64,000 bases of DNA, from NCBI RefSeq assembly GCF_900103365.1, contig NZ_LT629703.1, positions 6,682,501-6,746,500 on the forward strand, given 5' to 3'. A program made the translations under genes and the position numbers. Below are positions 57,271 through 63,992 of the stretch, piece after piece. The notes beneath the pieces were generated by a model that had not been told where the DNA came from, did no database searches, and was given only the letters and a program-made list of their open reading frames with translations. Every line of letters starts with the position of its first letter. The stretch's first letter is position 1. This DNA is from Afipia sp. GAS231. Lineage in GTDB: Bacteria > Pseudomonadota > Alphaproteobacteria > Rhizobiales > Xanthobacteraceae.

Positions 57271-58659
57271 ATGGCTGAGTTCGACGTCGATCTGTTCGTC
57301 ATCGGGGGCGGCTCGGGCGGCGTGCGCGCCGCGCGGATCGCGGCCAACCACGGCGCCAAAGTCATGGTCGCCGAGGAATACCGGATGGGCGGCACCTGCG
57401 TGATCCGCGGTTGCGTGCCGAAGAAGCTGTTCGTGATCGGCTCCCATATCAAGCACGAGATCGAGGACGCCGCGGGTTTTGGCTGGACCGTCGGCGACGT
57501 TGCCTTCGACTGGCCGACGCTGGTCGCCAACAAGGACAAGGAAATCGCGCGGTTAGAGTCCATCTACACCACCAATGTGGAAAAGAGCGGCGCCAGGGTC
57601 GTGAAGACGCGCGCGGTGCTGGAAGACGCCCACACCGTTCGGCTGATGACCGGCGAAAAGGTCACCGCAAAATACATCCTGATCGCGACCGGCGGCGCGC
57701 CCAACCACGGCCCGGCATTTCCCGGCATCGAGCACGTGATCTCCTCCAACGAGGCGTTTCACCTGAAGGAACTGCCGAAGCGCATCGTGATCCAGGGCGG
57801 CGGCTATATCGCGCTGGAATTCGCCGGCATCTTCAACGGCTACGGCTCCGACGTCACGGTGATCTATCGCGGCGACAACATCTTGCGCGGCTTTGACGAG
57901 GACGTCCGCAGCCACGTGCGGACCGAGATGGAGAAACAAGGCATCACCATTCTCACCGGCTGCACCGTCAACAAGGTCGACAGGCACGGCCACGAATTTA
58001 CCACGCACCTGTCGAACGGGTCGAGCATCGCCTCGGACCAGGTGATGTTCGCGATCGGCCGGCATCCGAACGTCGGGGGTCTCGGACTGGAAACGGCTGG
58101 CGTCGCCATCAACCCGAACAACGGCGGCGTCGCCGTCGACGGCTGGTCGAAATCCTCCGTCGACAACATCTATGCGATCGGTGACGTCACCCACCGCCAC
58201 AACCTGACCCCGGTCGCGATCCGCGAGGGCCATGCCTTCGCCGACACCGTGTTCGGCAAACGCCCCGTGCAGGTCGATCATGCCACCATCCCGACCGCGG
58301 TGTTCTCGCAGCCCGAAGTCGGCACCGTCGGCCTGACGGAGCAGGAGGCCCGCGCGCAGTTCTCCCATGTCGATATCTACAAGACCGATTTCCGCCCGAT
58401 CAAGGCGACGATGTCCGGCCGCGACACCCGCATCCTGATGAAGCTCGTGGTCGACGGCGCAAGCGACCGCGTGCTCGGCTGCCACATCGTCGGCGACGCC
58501 GCCGCCGAAATCACCCAAGCCGTCGCGATCGCGGTGAAGCTGAAGGCGACGAAAGCCGATTTCGACGCGACCATCGCGCTGCATCCGACCGCGTCCGAAG
58601 AACTGGTGACGATGCGGACGCCGACGGCAAGGTATGTCAGGGAAGCGGCGGCGGAGTAG
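57271..58659 (+). CDS. gor: Glutathione-disulfide reductase
   Basis: 462 residues. The FAD motif is VIGGGSGGVRAARI. The redox-active disulfide is Cys43/Cys48 in GGTCVIRGCVPKKLF. NAD(P) binding is shown by IQGGGYIALEFAGIFNGYGS. The interface domain ends with the catalytic His-Pro-Thr in ALHPTASEELVTM. It uses NADPH to keep glutathione reduced. It is the last core gene before the AT-richer ATPase/protease island. Confidence 0.95.
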   Translation: MAEFDVDLFVIGGGSGGVRAARIAANHGAKVMVAEEYRMGGTCVIRGCVPKKLFVIGSHIKHEIEDAAGFGWTVGDVAFDWPTLVANKDKEIARLESIYTTNVEKSGARVVKTRAVLEDAHTVRLMTGEKVTAKYILIATGGAPNHGPAFPGIEHVISSNEAFHLKELPKRIVIQGGGYIALEFAGIFNGYGSDVTVIYRGDNILRGFDEDVRSHVRTEMEKQGITILTGCTVNKVDRHGHEFTTHLSNGSSIASDQVMFAIGRHPNVGGLGLETAGVAINPNNGGVAVDGWSKSSVDNIYAIGDVTHRHNLTPVAIREGHAFADTVFGKRPVQVDHATIPTAVFSQPEVGTVGLTEQEARAQFSHVDIYKTDFRPIKATMSGRDTRILMKLVVDGASDRVLGCHIVGDAAAEITQAVAIAVKLKATKADFDATIALHPTASEELVTMRTPTARYVREAAAE

Positions 58660-58719
58660 GGGGGCGTCAACCCAGGACGGCGCACCGTTGTGATGACGCG
58701 TCCAAATATTTAGCGCTCC

Positions 58720-61275
58720 CTAGGGACCGACCCGAACTGGTGCGCGCGGTTTTAACGCCAAAGGCGCTCGTACCTCTTCGTAAATCGGCAGGGTTTCATC
58801 GTCGGTCTCCAGCGTGGCTACCAGCCCAAACCGAACAAGGTCTGGCAGTTGGTCGCCTTGATCTGGGTCTCGAGCAACGCGAAGTTCGACCGCGTCGCCA
58901 GCAACGAAATTGCGAGCGGCCATGCCCTCCCAAAAGCGGTGATAGATGGTTCCTCGCGGTTTCCTATCTGGTTGTCCGTCCAGCGCCCGCGTGCATATCG
59001 CCTTATACTGAGGTTCTTCAACCTTCAAACGAACGCCGCGGTAGGCGCGACGACCAGATTGGACCGGCGTAAACCAAGCCAACGTTACGCTCAATTTCCG
59101 CGGTCCCCGCACACCGGACAGCGATATGGGGAGAGGAAGGCTGAATACCTTTGCTTCGTTCTCCCCTATCACACCTTCTCCCCAGAGCGTGGCTCGTGAA
59201 CTTATGCAGCCGAGTACTTCCTCGACGTCTGGAACGCCGAAACCGAAAATGCGTTGTACATTTGCCTTCCGCTTGCCTCCCTCACTTGCACCTGGAGGAC
59301 CAAATACGTCGTTTATCAGCAAACGGCTTTCCTCAGGAACGGATGCACGATGTACAAGAAGAGCCTTGATAATTACGGCACGGGCATCCGCCGGCAGCTG
59401 CATGAAATCCTCTCCATATGCAGTTTCAAGAGCATCATGGATGAGATGACATGCCCGTGTAGCGAGGGCCGTGGCTGCGCTCGTAGAACCTGAATGCTGC
59501 ATCTGCGAGGCGACACCCGCTGCGTTGACGCCGGGCCCAGCAGCCCTCACTCCGCCGAACCTGTTGCCGCCGTCGAAAACAAGACGGGCCACAGTCGGAT
59601 CGGTCTGTTGCAACAGCGCACGCAAACGTCCCCCGGGGAAAAGAAGGTCGGGCTTTATGGAGCTTCGATAGCCGAGGCCCATACGAGAGACAGGAGTTGC
59701 AAATATGCCGACTGGAAGAGGATCCCTGGATTGCCCCATGTCTGGTGCCGCCGCTATCTCGTCGTCGTGCAGCGCTCCAATCGCTAAACAGTTCATGGCC
59801 TCCGATGGAGGCAACAATCGGCGACTGTGCATTCCCCAATTTAGACCGGCTAGGGTGGCTCGAGTACGCTGCTCGCCACGACTATTCGCGAACGTCGCCA
59901 TGTCCATATTAGGAATGAGAAGACTTCTGCAGTTGCCTGCGCTTACGAGAAAAAGAATGCCGTACGATGCGGCGAGCCAATCAATTGCACGCGCAAACGC
60001 GGAAATCCTGCTGCCAAACGGACGTTTTGCGTCACCAATCGACAGGTTCACGATGAGAACGTCTGGTGCCACAGGCGGAGAGCCAGCGTCGCCGACTTTC
60101 AGTCGCCGGATTGCTTGAACCAGAATGTCCACTATCAGTCGGTTGGCAGGCGGCGCTTCGTCCACAAAATTCGGATCATTCACCGCCGAATACATGATCG
60201 GCAGGAATACTAATCGCCTAGAGAGGGCCGGTTCGTTCTTTGCCAAGTCGCCGTGGATCACCAGAGATGCCATAGCGGTCCCGTGCATTCTGGGCCCAAC
60301 AGTAATTCCCTCAAGTCCTAAAAAATCTTCGACTGTGACGCGCGCTCCAATCAGGACGTGATTTTGTTGCGGAACAGCGTCAAGGATGGCCGCGATGGGC
60401 GGGCCAAGTGCCGAAGCTTCAGATGAGAGTTCCGCAGGCTCAGTGTCAACCTCCGTAGAAACATTCAACACGCTTTGTGGTCTAATAGAAAAAACATCGA
60501 CCAATCTCGCCAAGCTATCGTCAGCTCGTTGTGCAATGGCTACCGCCGCCTCGTTTTCCAAGTCGACCAATAACGCATCGTACGCGATTTCGGAAATTCG
60601 GGAGATGCTAGTAACTCTGCCGCCCGCCTCCTCAACCGACCGAATTACTTCCGTACGATGCGAAGTTGCAGTGTCTTCGTTTGGTTCGAAGGCAAGTTCA
60701 ATTTCTAAACGCACGTTGGATTGAGGGTAGGTCGCCGCATCCTCTATAATCGCCGCGGCGTCTTCATCAGTCACTCGATCCTTCGGCCCCCACCTCCTTA
60801 AACTGTGAAGACACCCGAAGACCTTGGCCCACTTCGCGTGTTGGCCTAAATCGTCTTCGTCACTCCAGAGTTTCCAAAGCCGCAGCAACTCTTCGATAGC
60901 CCGCTGGTCGGGCATAGTCAGGTAGTAGTGGCCTTTGGTCAGAACGTCGTCGTCGTCAAACTCGACTTCGTCATCAGCAAGTATTCGAAGCCCAATGTCC
61001 TCGCATGCTTCCGCAAATATAATAAGTGGTCCCTTCGTCTCAAAAACGACCAACGTCTCGGGCGCAAGAGCATTTGGCTCATCTCTCAGAGTAAGCATAT
61101 CTTCGCCCTGCTCAACTACTTGGCGAAGTCGATCAAAGATCGGGCCGAGCTGACGAGTTTGTCGTGTTCTCTGATATGCAGCCGGTTGAGGGATTCTACT
61201 TGGCGCGCCGCTTGCTCTTTTGGCGTTTCCGGGCGGATCGAACTTTAGTATTGGCTTGTCTTGGTCTCTTGGCAT
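58720..61275 (-). CDS. ietS: Cytoplasmic subtilisin-like serine protease, IetS type
   Basis: 851 residues without a signal peptide. The first 290 residues are non-catalytic and partly acidic (VEFDDDDVLT). The S8 triad is Asp299 in IAAILDAV, His331 in PRMHGTAMASL and probably Ser599 in HSGSTSAATAL, with the oxyanion Asn448 in LVSAGN. A C-terminal beta region follows. The start overlaps the upstream AAA+ ATPase gene by 80 bases, so the two are coupled. This ATPase/subtilase pairing matches IetAS, known from Ti-plasmid stability and as an anti-phage system. Base composition is clearly AT-richer than neighbouring genes. Confidence 0.85.
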   Translation of the reverse strand: MPRDQDKPILKFDPPGNAKRASGAPSRIPQPAAYQRTRQTRQLGPIFDRLRQVVEQGEDMLTLRDEPNALAPETLVVFETKGPLIIFAEACEDIGLRILADDEVEFDDDDVLTKGHYYLTMPDQRAIEELLRLWKLWSDEDDLGQHAKWAKVFGCLHSLRRWGPKDRVTDEDAAAIIEDAATYPQSNVRLEIELAFEPNEDTATSHRTEVIRSVEEAGGRVTSISRISEIAYDALLVDLENEAAVAIAQRADDSLARLVDVFSIRPQSVLNVSTEVDTEPAELSSEASALGPPIAAILDAVPQQNHVLIGARVTVEDFLGLEGITVGPRMHGTAMASLVIHGDLAKNEPALSRRLVFLPIMYSAVNDPNFVDEAPPANRLIVDILVQAIRRLKVGDAGSPPVAPDVLIVNLSIGDAKRPFGSRISAFARAIDWLAASYGILFLVSAGNCRSLLIPNMDMATFANSRGEQRTRATLAGLNWGMHSRRLLPPSEAMNCLAIGALHDDEIAAAPDMGQSRDPLPVGIFATPVSRMGLGYRSSIKPDLLFPGGRLRALLQQTDPTVARLVFDGGNRFGGVRAAGPGVNAAGVASQMQHSGSTSAATALATRACHLIHDALETAYGEDFMQLPADARAVIIKALLVHRASVPEESRLLINDVFGPPGASEGGKRKANVQRIFGFGVPDVEEVLGCISSRATLWGEGVIGENEAKVFSLPLPISLSGVRGPRKLSVTLAWFTPVQSGRRAYRGVRLKVEEPQYKAICTRALDGQPDRKPRGTIYHRFWEGMAARNFVAGDAVELRVARDPDQGDQLPDLVRFGLVATLETDDETLPIYEEVRAPLALKPRAPVRVGP

Positions 61276-62236
61276 GTGGCACGGCCCCCAACCGCTTTGA
61301 CCAAAGTATCATTTGCTCGTCAATCAAGCTCGCAGGCGAACGTTGGCCCAGTGCGAGGACGTTTTTTCTCTGAACGTCAAAAATAAACTCGGTGGCTTCT
61401 GCATAACTTAGCAGGCCAATTTTTTGGACGAGCTTCTTTGGATTGGCTGGGATGTCAGCAGCTTTAAATGCTTGAGAGAAGAATTCGGCAAGTTGATCGA
61501 ATGAGGGGGCTGGCATGGCAAGTCGCAACTGAAATCGTCGCCATGCAGCCCGATCGAGGAGTTCAGGGTGATTGGTTGCCCCGATAATCACCACGTAACT
61601 AGGAAGTGCATCAACTTGCAATAGAAAATTAGCGACAACTCGCTTGATTTCTCCGGTTTCGTGTTCGTCTCCCCGCTCTTTGCCAATCGCGTCGAACTCA
61701 TCAAAGAGGACCACACAGGGAATGGTTCTGAGGAAATCAAAAAGCCGCCCGAGCCGCTGTGCAGTTTCTCCGAGATAGCTTCCGATCAAAGCCTCATAGC
61801 GAACAGAAAAAAATGGGAGGGCGAGAGCTTCTGCCATCGCTTCAGCCAAGGCGGTCTTTCCATTTCCCGGAGGACCAGACAGGAGCACTCTATGTCGTGG
61901 TTGTAGTCCGTGGCTACGCAGTAGGTCACCGCGAAATTGTTCTTCAATTAGTTCTCGGCACTGCTGCTCAACTTCAGAAGCTAGAAATAAGTCGGAAAGT
62001 CTCTTCGTTGGCTTTGTCTCTAGGATCAGTTCGCGCCCGGAAATGGGCCTCGGCGCACCCGGGAGTTGGGTTGAGCTGATTTGCGAGTTGAGAGCGCGTG
62101 TTAGTTTGTCCGCAAGTGCGTCATGCTGTTGAGCACGCTCCTCCGCCGCAATGGTTTCAACGGTCGTTCGGAGCATCGTCCGGTCACCGGTCGTAGCTGC
62201 CCGAACAAGCGAAATCAAAAGATCAGATCGAGCCAT
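61196..62236 (-). CDS. ietA: AAA+ ATPase partner of the subtilase, IetA type
   Basis: 346 residues from the ATG at 62236. The N-terminal 80 residues are helical (MARSDLLISLVRAATTGDRT, then AEERAQQHDALADKL) and typical of the standalone FtsH/CDC48-like ATPases paired with subtilases. Walker A is GPPGNGKTAL at 121-130, Walker B is VVLFDEFDA at 175-183, sensor 1 is IIGATNHPE, and RAAWRRFQLRL holds the arginine finger region. The basic C-terminus (RSARKRQKSKRRAK) could bind nucleic acid. It probably controls or feeds the protease encoded next to it. Confidence 0.85.
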   Translation of the reverse strand: MARSDLLISLVRAATTGDRTMLRTTVETIAAEERAQQHDALADKLTRALNSQISSTQLPGAPRPISGRELILETKPTKRLSDLFLASEVEQQCRELIEEQFRGDLLRSHGLQPRHRVLLSGPPGNGKTALAEAMAEALALPFFSVRYEALIGSYLGETAQRLGRLFDFLRTIPCVVLFDEFDAIGKERGDEHETGEIKRVVANFLLQVDALPSYVVIIGATNHPELLDRAAWRRFQLRLAMPAPSFDQLAEFFSQAFKAADIPANPKKLVQKIGLLSYAEATEFIFDVQRKNVLALGQRSPASLIDEQMILWSKRLGAVPHAKRPRQANTKVRSARKRQKSKRRAK

Positions 62237-62535
62237 TACCGCGTCGCCTCTACCCCTGATCGTTTGCAGGGCCCACAGATCGATAACATGTCGATTGGCG
62301 AAAGGACACTTGCGCGCTCGCAGACTTAGCGCCCATTCGAGCTCCCTGTGGACAGCAGCGCGAAGGGGCGGACTTGGAATGGCTCGCCTATGACCGCAAA
62401 GGACCGGCACCGACAAATCATACGGCAAGTGACCGAGGTCCAGTTTTGGCGAGGGCCACTCGTTGACGCCTTAGGCCTTGATAAATCTCACATATTTTTC
62501 GTGCGTCGCCGTTCCTCTCGCGGTTTGCTTTTACT
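62237..62535. other. Promoter region of the ATPase/protease island
   Basis: About 300 bases between the ATPase start and a small-gene remnant. Open frames here are not protein-like. No integrase, tRNA end or clear attachment repeat was seen. Confidence 0.4.
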
Positions 62536-62817
62536 TCAACGTATTCGCGAGCGTGAACGTTCGAAAGCATCATTGGGCAACCATTGGTCCTGCCCAATCA
62601 CCGCTCCTCGCTCCGGACGCACCCACTTGTACGGCGTAATTTGCTGCGTCCCGGTCAGCTTGATGATGTGCATCGGCGGCGCGTAGCGGCCCTTGCGGCA
62701 GTTGCACTCCACTTCCAGAAGGCCGAGTCCGCCGTTGAGCATTGCCGGATGGTGGGTGAGGGCTGCGCCGGGCCGCCATAGCCTCCCATCCGGATCGACC
62801 AGGCAAAGCCTCCTCAT
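62536..62817 (-). CDS. Small hypothetical protein at the island edge
   Basis: 93 residues. The central part (LNGGLGLLEVECNCRKGRYA, then MHIIKLTGTQQITPYKWVRP) looks like a real small cysteine-containing protein, while both ends are poor. It begins with ATGA overlapping the stop of the 36-residue frame upstream. It may be a remnant cut by the island insertion. I recognise no family. Confidence 0.35.
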   Translation of the reverse strand: MRRLCLVDPDGRLWRPGAALTHHPAMLNGGLGLLEVECNCRKGRYAPPMHIIKLTGTQQITPYKWVRPERGAVIGQDQWLPNDAFERSRSRIR

Positions 62818-62924
62818 GGTCGGCTTTGCGGATCCTGTTTGGCTTCCGCGCGCGCGGCCTCGGCGCGGATGCGCGCGCCCATGATCTGGCCGCCCCAGAT
62901 GACCTCGCGCGATCTCGTGCTCAT
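62814..62924 (-). CDS. 36-residue hypothetical protein
   Basis: A short frame starting STRSREVIWGGQIMGARIRA and ending in a charged Ala/Glu/Lys-rich helix. It is translationally coupled (ATGA) to the 93-residue frame that follows. The size and lack of a strong ribosome binding site keep confidence low. Confidence 0.35.
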   Translation of the reverse strand: MSTRSREVIWGGQIMGARIRAEAARAEAKQDPQSRP

Positions 62925-63140
62925 GAGGGCATTACAGCGGTGCTACGCCACTAGGATTGGCGGGCGGGAACGCGCTGGCCACACCACGGCTCGGTCAATG
63001 CGCCGTCCGATACCGGCATTGCGATTCGGTCCGCGGCGATTTTCGCGGGCGGACGAGGGGGGCTTCCAACAGACTACCTCTCCCCGCCGCCCTCTGCTAA
63101 CGCTATCCGCCAGCACAGGGATAACGGAGTTAGGTGACCC

Positions 63141-63992
63141 ATGATTGAGCAGATCGGTATCGTCGGCGCGGGCACGATGGGCAACGGGATCGCGCAAGTC
63201 TGCGCGGCGGCGGGGTTGTCGGTGACCATGACCGATATTTCCGATGCCGCGCTGACGCGGGGCATGTCGGTCGTGACCGGCAGCCTGGAGCGGCTGGTCA
63301 ACAAGCAGAAGATGACCGACGCCGACCGGCAGGCGGCGCTGGCGCGCATCGCCACCACGACCGACAGCGCCAAACTCGCCAATTGCGATCTGGTGATCGA
63401 GGCCGCGACCGAGAACGAGGATCTGAAGATCAAGATTCTGAAGGATCTCTGCACCAAGCTGCGGCCCTCCGCGCTGCTCGCGACCAACACCTCTTCGATC
63501 TCGATCACCAAACTCGCCGCCGCCACCGACCGGCCGGATCGCTTCATCGGCATGCACTTCTTCAATCCGGTGCCGCTGATGGCGCTGCTGGAATTGATCC
63601 GGGGTTTTCAGACCTCCGACGACACTCACGCCAAGGCCGCCGAATTTGCCAAGCGCATCGGCAAAGTCGCGGTGACCGCAAAGAACAGCCCGGGCTTTGC
63701 GGTCAACCGCATCCTGTGCCCGATGATCAACGAGGCGATCTTCGCGCTGGCCGAAGGCATCGCCACCGCCGAGGATCTCGACGCCGGCATGAAGCTCGGC
63801 TGCAACCACCCGATCGGGCCGCTGGCGTTGGCCGACATGATCGGGCTCGACACCATGCTGTCGGTGATGGAAGTGTTTTACGAGGGCTTCAACGATCCGA
63901 AATACCGGCCCGCGCCGCTGCTGAAGGAAATGGTCGCCGCCGGCCATCTCGGCCGCAAGACCGGGCAGGGGTTTTACAGTTACGGGAAGTAA
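63141..63992 (+). CDS. 3-hydroxybutyryl-CoA dehydrogenase
   Basis: 283 residues. The Rossmann motif is IGIVGAGTMGNGIAQVCAAA. The catalytic histidine is in FIGMHFFNPVPLMALLELI, with the dyad glutamate just downstream. VTAKNSPGFAVNRILCPMIN and HLGRKTGQGFYSYG close the second domain. This is the Hbd/PaaH size class, oxidising (S)-3-hydroxyacyl-CoA with NAD for beta-oxidation or polyhydroxybutyrate metabolism. The gene is complete and ends 8 bases before the window edge. Confidence 0.93.
   Translation: MIEQIGIVGAGTMGNGIAQVCAAAGLSVTMTDISDAALTRGMSVVTGSLERLVNKQKMTDADRQAALARIATTTDSAKLANCDLVIEAATENEDLKIKILKDLCTKLRPSALLATNTSSISITKLAAATDRPDRFIGMHFFNPVPLMALLELIRGFQTSDDTHAKAAEFAKRIGKVAVTAKNSPGFAVNRILCPMINEAIFALAEGIATAEDLDAGMKLGCNHPIGPLALADMIGLDTMLSVMEVFYEGFNDPKYRPAPLLKEMVAAGHLGRKTGQGFYSYGK

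Follow-up and report, generated by a model that had tools for sequence, protein, structure and literature searches.

An intact, probably horizontally acquired ietAS-like ATPase-protease gene pair between gor and hbd in Afipia sp. GAS231

Afipia sp. GAS231, whose genome is a single contig of 7.58 Mb, carries between gor and an hbd-type gene two overlapping genes, here termed ietA and ietS, which code for an AAA+ ATPase and a subtilisin-type (S8 family) protease, respectively. Both genes lie in a stretch of 64,000 nucleotides (NZ_LT629703.1, positions 6,682,501 to 6,746,500 of the forward strand), called the window below and used for all coordinates given without a locus name. We propose that ietAS probably represents an intact, horizontally acquired toxin-antitoxin-type defence module of the IetAS kind, in which the ATPase restrains a harmful protease. 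This reading is based on profile membership, intact sites, the pairing and co-inheritance of the genes, a conserved overlap, a foreign base composition and a near-empty junction in a relative. A preliminary description, made from the sequence alone, had already interpreted the pair as IetAS-like, and that interpretation is supported: of the two outcomes it had named as counting against it, neither the lack of a match to IetA/IetS profiles, nor the presence of the pair at this locus in all relatives with normal base composition, came about.

The two open reading frames (ORFs) are present as first described and share exactly 80 bases. The start of IetA is the ATG at 62236, picked at the conserved MARSDLL, and its stop lies at 61196.

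58720..61275, reverse strand: ietS-like S8 family protease, 851 residues (ORF; PADLOC IetS profile PDLC04233; Pfam Peptidase_S8; AlphaFold2 model with a predicted local distance difference test score (pLDDT) of 90.3)
61196..62236, reverse strand: ietA-like AAA+ ATPase, 346 residues (ORF; PADLOC IetA profile PDLC04232; Pfam AAA; model pLDDT 79.6)
61196..61275, reverse strand: overlap of the ietA end and the ietS start, 80 nt, ietS being read in frame +1 with respect to ietA

Profile searches bore out the presumed family identity over nearly the full length of both proteins; the family is known from plasmid stability and phage defence. IetS scores 801.2 bits against PDLC04233 (residues 6-845; profile positions 3-850 of 855), and IetA scores 446.9 bits against PDLC04232 (residues 1-318; profile positions 1-322 of 330). 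The features expected of an IetAS system in the PADLOC sense are found here, namely matches to an IetA and an IetS profile over most of the protein length, adjacent genes with the ATPase first, an intact S8 triad and intact Walker A and B motifs. The triad named in the preliminary description (Asp299, His331, Ser599) and an oxyanion-type Asn448 show no variation in an alignment of 88 IetS sequences (87 of 120 proteins listed plus that of the window) or in 92 IetA/IetS pairs. Walker A and the Asp-Glu of Walker B, motifs earlier called clear, are equally invariant in 49 aligned IetA sequences (48 of 120 plus that of the window), as is a pair of arginines that are candidate arginine fingers. As noted before, the N-terminus of IetS reads as lacking a signal peptide.

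59206..60405, reverse strand: subtilisin catalytic domain of IetS, approximately residues 291-690, with Asp299, His331, Asn448 and Ser599
61853..61876, reverse strand: IetA Walker A, GPPGNGKT, residues 121-128, invariant in 49 sequences
61697..61714, reverse strand: IetA Walker B, VVLFDE, residues 175-180, with Asp-Glu 179-180 invariant in 49 sequences
61535..61540, reverse strand: IetA Arg233-Arg234, candidate arginine fingers, invariant in 49 sequences

The overlap of the two genes is long and conserved. In the set of the best 80 of 492 loci, IetA immediately precedes IetS at 78; of the 78 loci of this set in which the junction was evaluated (L158 and L172 come without upstream sequence), 72 show an overlap of at least 20 nt, ranging from 23 to 197 nt, and six show none. 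The same-genus relatives of the branch overlap by 53-101 nt at all 13 evaluable of 14 loci examined; three of these loci are near-identical plasmid copies, and L099 offers two possible GTG starts (83 or 53 nt). L100, where IetS is broken between alignment residues 299 and 301, was excluded from this count and from the pair correlation given below. Since the long overlap puts the start of the protease inside the ATPase gene, both proteins would be made together, the ATPase first.

61240..61257, reverse strand: IetS N-terminal motif KPILKF (KPLLRL in the family), residues 7-12, inside the overlap and conserved by position in 69 loci
61199..61285, reverse strand: disordered basic tail of IetA, residues 318-346 (pLDDT 35-40 in blocks)

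Around a PLL anchor, the IetS frame is conserved in these 69 loci (D 61, P 60, K 56, R 59, L 61); the anchor fixes three positions by construction, and D, P, K, R and L, as well as an R at +12 (44 of 45), are independent of it. Third codon positions of the IetS frame are the most variable ones in the motif, and the IetA residues read from the same bases vary. Where the overlap begins, IetA (A/G)-E-R-S is conserved too (R 61, E 43 and S 43 of 69), and the IetA frame is therefore not free there. Selection thus acts chiefly on the N-terminal end of IetS, and at the beginning of the overlap IetA is also under some constraint. These patterns also recast the basic tail of the ATPase that had been pointed out earlier: it is present in this copy, but it is predicted to be disordered, is mostly poorly conserved and is largely a by-product of the overlap. 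For the most part, the tail is the beginning of IetS (conserved DPTKPLLRL) translated in a different frame; where the genes do not overlap (six loci: L136, L148, L165, L178, L180 and L181), IetA ends without a basic tail. A role of the tail as a general DNA-binding element was considered and rejected, since it is predicted to be disordered, is mostly variable where the IetS frame is conserved and is missing from these six loci.

IetA and IetS distances are tightly correlated among the 92 pairs (r = 0.941; 0 of 999 permutations as high), and the two genes therefore appear to have been inherited together. IetA relatives at E <= 1e-40 occur in 49 of 195 sampled genomes of the same genus (that of the window included) and fall into two groups, which are 51-56% (group 1) and 34-41% (group 2) identical. 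Apart from the place in the window, group 1 comprises 15 places distributed over 14 genomes; with the second place in G180 left out, an IetS of the same branch lies next door in 14 of 14 places examined, although it is broken in L100. Among the 92 pairs, the IetS of the window is nearest to those of a Brevundimonas, a Hyphomonadaceae metagenome-assembled genome and a Rhizobiales metagenome-assembled genome (45-47%), not to those of 13 other same-genus loci. A wider protein search returned closer relatives, 67-88% identical over 86-95% of the query, including one from Bradyrhizobium sp. LMG 9283. By sequence similarity, the nearest kin are accordingly rare, but in part found within the same genus.

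A foreign origin is suggested by base composition and synteny. The guanine-plus-cytosine (GC) content of the ietAS operon is 0.544, compared to 0.644 for gor and 0.633 for hbd, and GC at third codon positions amounts to 0.487 in the ATPase and 0.534 in the protease gene versus 0.875 and 0.873 in gor and hbd, respectively. In 100 windows of the operon's length from 20 stretches of the same genome, background GC averages 0.631 (standard deviation 0.019, minimum 0.568), and none is as low as the operon. The contrast perceived in the preliminary description is real, but it is milder than the 45-55% estimated there, as GC ranges from 0.497 to 0.590 in 400-bp windows between 58800 and 62399. Blastn matches to relatives end at about 58659-58664 and restart at 63072-63153, depending on the relative.

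57271-58659: gor, with pyridine nucleotide-disulphide oxidoreductase domains
63141-63992: hbd-type gene, with 3-hydroxyacyl-CoA dehydrogenase domains
58665..63071, no strand assigned: inserted segment, approximate limits from blastn edges against relatives, GC 0.559
62597..62943, reverse strand: broken relict of a small genus-common gene in the right part of the inserted segment, intact in L084 and L086

In 19 relatives, about 13-15 kb beyond gor were examined in each; hbd was matched in this stretch in four of them, where the aligned blocks are separated by 115, 423, 757 and 930 bp, and the other 15 have no such match. As to the proposed comparison of gor-hbd synteny, the pair cannot sit at the junction in the four relatives that keep both genes close, because only 115-930 bp are available, and with 115 bp the junction of L068 is almost empty. 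The junction of 930 bp in L063 (genome G023) contains genes for a MazE-type antitoxin and a PIN-domain protein according to Pfam (L063:632-1305), and therefore the junction accepts small modules; it may be a small hotspot of toxin-antitoxin modules. The genome was noticed to carry a second gor copy at L082 (G000:C1:4955560-4956947), 83% identical to that of the window and without an hbd match in 15 kb beyond it on one side. As for a target-site duplication, the best border-to-border matches were an 8-bp direct and a 10-bp inverted repeat, which we did not take as evidence. There is no tRNA in the 64-kb window, and Rfam at the gathering threshold gave no match in 57-64 kb.

Taken as a module of this kind, the pair would probably operate as follows. 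IetS would be a cytoplasmic subtilisin-type protease that is harmful when unrestrained, and IetA, an AAA+ motor assembling into a ring, would bind IetS and keep it in check with the help of ATP, the overlap coupling the synthesis of both proteins. A phage or a plasmid-loss signal would upset the pair, and freed IetS would then cut phage or host proteins, such that phage spread is stopped or cells that lost the element are killed. That the protease is toxic and that the ATPase neutralises it has been shown for other pairs of this kind and is carried over by analogy; ring formation and threading, coupled translation, the sequence of events and the nature of trigger and substrate are inferred. 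As to the analogues, S025 of Salmonella Genomic Island 1 (SGI1) is described as toxic in Escherichia coli in under 30 minutes and as neutralised by S026 (PMC5006074), and a mycoplasma study reports toxin-antitoxin behaviour for a subtilase/AAA pair whose ATPase neutralises the toxicity of the protease (PMC8562856). A link to defence comes from a 2025 paper, in which IetAS on a Pf prophage is statistically associated with phage resistance by a mechanism described there as unknown (PMC11878078), and from a review with a table row on functional phage proteins in which IetAS is entered (PMC10286901).

Several observations weigh against this interpretation. The NCBIfam equivalogs of the anti-phage pair IteA/IteS (NF042959, NF042956) show significant similarity, yet the scores fall far below the cut-offs (66.8 of 900 and 210.5 of 510 bits), and hence the proposed IetAS-like identity holds for the PADLOC profiles but does not extend to the named equivalogs; in terms of sequence, the pair is a divergent branch relative to NCBIfam IteA/IteS that the PADLOC profiles already cover. 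None of seven neighbouring gene products between 53593 and 63989 matches any PADLOC model, and ietAS thus does not belong to a recognised cluster of defence genes. The sequence upstream of ietA showed no promoter-like site, which bears on the expression of the pair; promoter and terminator counts are near shuffle level (3 vs 1.8 and 8 vs 5.0). The mycoplasma and SGI1 pairs are likened to this branch by description and not by sequence comparison, and the SGI1 operon under its own promoter caused no post-segregational killing (PMC5006074). Finally, our literature search retrieved no experiment on this pair or, among the papers listed, on this branch. None of the papers listed addresses the branch, the gene overlap or RPQS in its title or in the opening of its abstract; given a coverage of few subscription papers and no bioRxiv preprints, this speaks only weakly for a true absence.

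Some of these points would also suit a mere maintenance (addiction) module, a remnant of a plasmid or an integrated element that has no defence role in the host. IetS-like matches are found in 77 plasmid records, 57 of which cover at least 80% of the query and 35 of which are predicted to be conjugative, and in 27 IMG/VR contigs, the weakest 23-30% identical; other branches are possibly included in both counts, and both also count in favour of the main reading. Near-identical ietAS copies were also seen on replicons of about 979 kb in three genomes (L096, L105 and L106). A phage-borne origin was rejected, with 0 matches in 50,697 annotated phage records, yet the IMG/VR contigs do hold IetS-like matches. 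A bare maintenance function is further in line with the lack of defence-model matches among the seven neighbours and with the adjacent relict at 62597-62943, which shows that the inserted segment is decaying. Against it, the reading frames of ietA and ietS are both fully open although the remainder of the insert is decaying, a contrast suggestive of ongoing selection, and the family has been linked to phage resistance in the literature cited above. On balance we regard a pure addiction module as unlikely. The relict itself belongs to a small gene common in the genus: the query 62237-63090 matches 115 of 190 genomes, many of them weakly, and the gene is intact in both relatives examined, L084 and L086. 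The L084 copy adjoins a gene for an SOS response associated peptidase (SRAP) by Pfam, an SRAP-like neighbour was seen by eye in L086, and in L098 an ORF resembling SRAP and a small ORF of similar kind, both identified by eye, lie no more than about 5 kb away from ietAS.

The protease part of the module offers ground for a different mechanism. The roughly 290 N-terminal residues of IetS, previously thought to be devoid of a recognised domain, are instead predicted to form two ferredoxin-like domains; the sensor role suggested there for this part is conceivable.

60793..61050, reverse strand: predicted ferredoxin-like domain 1 of IetS, residues 76-161 (secondary structure from the model; the fold is our reading)
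60478..60714, reverse strand: predicted ferredoxin-like domain 2 of IetS, possibly propeptide-like, residues 188-266 (from the model; the fold is our reading)
60472..60483, reverse strand: RPQS, residues 265-268, ahead of a variable linker; near-invariant in the branch
58804..59196, reverse strand: C-terminal beta-rich domain of IetS, residues 694-824 (from the model; KP-43 and ProN-Tk-SP alignments reach into it)

With the whole IetS model, Foldseek gave the pro-subtilisin ProN-Tk-SP as its top match (E 2.1e-18), followed by PCSK9 structures. At the level of secondary structure, the order of elements would fit a putative ferredoxin-like domain directly before the catalytic domain, and the rows of the structure alignments differ: in some, IetS is matched from residues 1-4 on to the beginning of the subtilisin domain, others begin at 277-292. 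A sequence-profile search of solved structures yielded weak IetS matches (5fax, E 0.17; 1wmd, E 0.22), and a Pfam scan to E 0.1 returned Peptidase_S8 only and no Inhibitor_I9 propeptide. RPQS is highly conserved (R 84, P 86, Q 87 and S 82 of 88 IetS) and occurs in its exact form in 74 of the 92 paired IetS. Ser268 precedes the catalytic Asp299 by 31 residues, which is the spacing between residue 1 and the catalytic Asp32 in subtilisin; the count from Gln267 to Asp299 varies from 30 to 36. In the model, the domain ending in RPQS resembles a subtilisin propeptide.

These features would fit a two-step zymogen, in which the second ferredoxin-like domain is a built-in propeptide with its RPQS end in, or cut by, the active site, and in which IetA pulls the prodomain off, a case of activation and not of restraint; the aromatic pore-loop position retained in IetA is consistent with such pulling. 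The fold, however, is that of a predicted structure, the spacing varies and Pfam sees no I9 propeptide. RPQS is found in none of ten upstream segments of other IetAS-like branches (the site in L029 is spurious, and TQS in L019 comes nearest), and a universal cleavage site at RPQS was rejected, as it finds no support outside this branch. Moreover, descriptions of other pairs have the ATPase as the antitoxin and the lone protease as toxic (PMC8562856, PMC5006074). We consider the zymogen unlikely. More specific, and less likely still, is the idea that domain 2 of the branch protease presents RPQS to the active site of a built-in zymogen, while the AAA+ partner acts on IetS via the N-terminal KPLLRL segment, for which the coding bases lie within the ATPase gene; if true, gene overlap, dosage and activation would be one regulatory device.

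The ATPase has its own parallels. The AAA part of IetA, compared over residues 62-324, matches p97, Vps4, FtsH, PAN and 26S ATPases, and it has an aromatic residue at a position that we take, after Vps4/FtsH-type AAA proteins, to be pore loop 1.

61775..61777, reverse strand: IetA Tyr154 in SYLGET, pore-loop-1 aromatic position (Tyr 32, Phe 17 of 49 sequences)
62078..62230, reverse strand: N-terminal three-helix segment of IetA, residues 3-53 (from the model; outside the structure matches)

While these matches and the conserved aromatic position could point to a two-part AAA+ protease without self-toxicity, in which IetA, like the unfoldase of a proteasome-type system, would supply IetS as the peptidase with unfolded phage proteins, this is quite improbable, as the subtilisin-type fold of IetS presumably provides an open cleft and not a closed chamber, and the toxicity of the lone protease in other pairs suggests that the protease acts without the ATPase (PMC8562856, PMC5006074).

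Defence databases include IetAS, although the 2025 paper still describes the way it works as unknown (PMC11878078). For a little-studied branch, the present analysis provides handles, each of which is open to testing by simple mutants: the long overlap conserved mainly in the protease frame, RPQS, the aromatic pore-loop position and the predicted tandem ferredoxin-like domains.

Among the closest known systems is the IetAS of PADLOC (IetA PDLC04232/04231, IetS PDLC04233/04234), with which the pair shares gene order, near full-length matches and intact catalytic sites; no tested feature separates it from these profiles, which describe the very branch of which it is a member. NCBIfam IteA/IteS has the same two-protein design, but the window pair scores far under its cut-offs. 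The other same-genus IetA-like genes (L018-L032) are also closely trailed by an ORF, which is of the IetS type in both loci checked (L107 and L108, the loci of L018 and L019); they differ in an IetA 34-41% identical to that of the window, in the absence of RPQS from the segments compared, and in the arrangement of the genes. In 13 of 15 the next ORF begins between 1 nt ahead of and 24 nt past the ATPase stop in place of a long overlap; of the remaining two, L026 has a script-chosen start 50 nt ahead of the stop, and L022 is not counted. Several downstream ORFs at L018-L032 and L107-L110 begin with a PHLLF-like motif. ProN-Tk-SP (3afg) and KP-43 (1wmd) resemble IetS in a subtilisin domain and a C-terminal beta domain, ProN-Tk-SP also in a prodomain, at 13-17% identity in the alignments; both are secreted enzymes that are not known to have an ATPase partner. 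SgiAT (S026/S025 of SGI1) and IetA/IetS of pTiC58 likewise combine an AAA-ATPase antitoxin with a subtilisin-type toxin (PMC5006074). Mycoplasma A132/T133 pairs an AAA-ATPase with a subtilisin-like protease toxin that the ATPase neutralises, but it stems from another phylum, and its protease has 757 residues in the table of that paper (PMC8562856).

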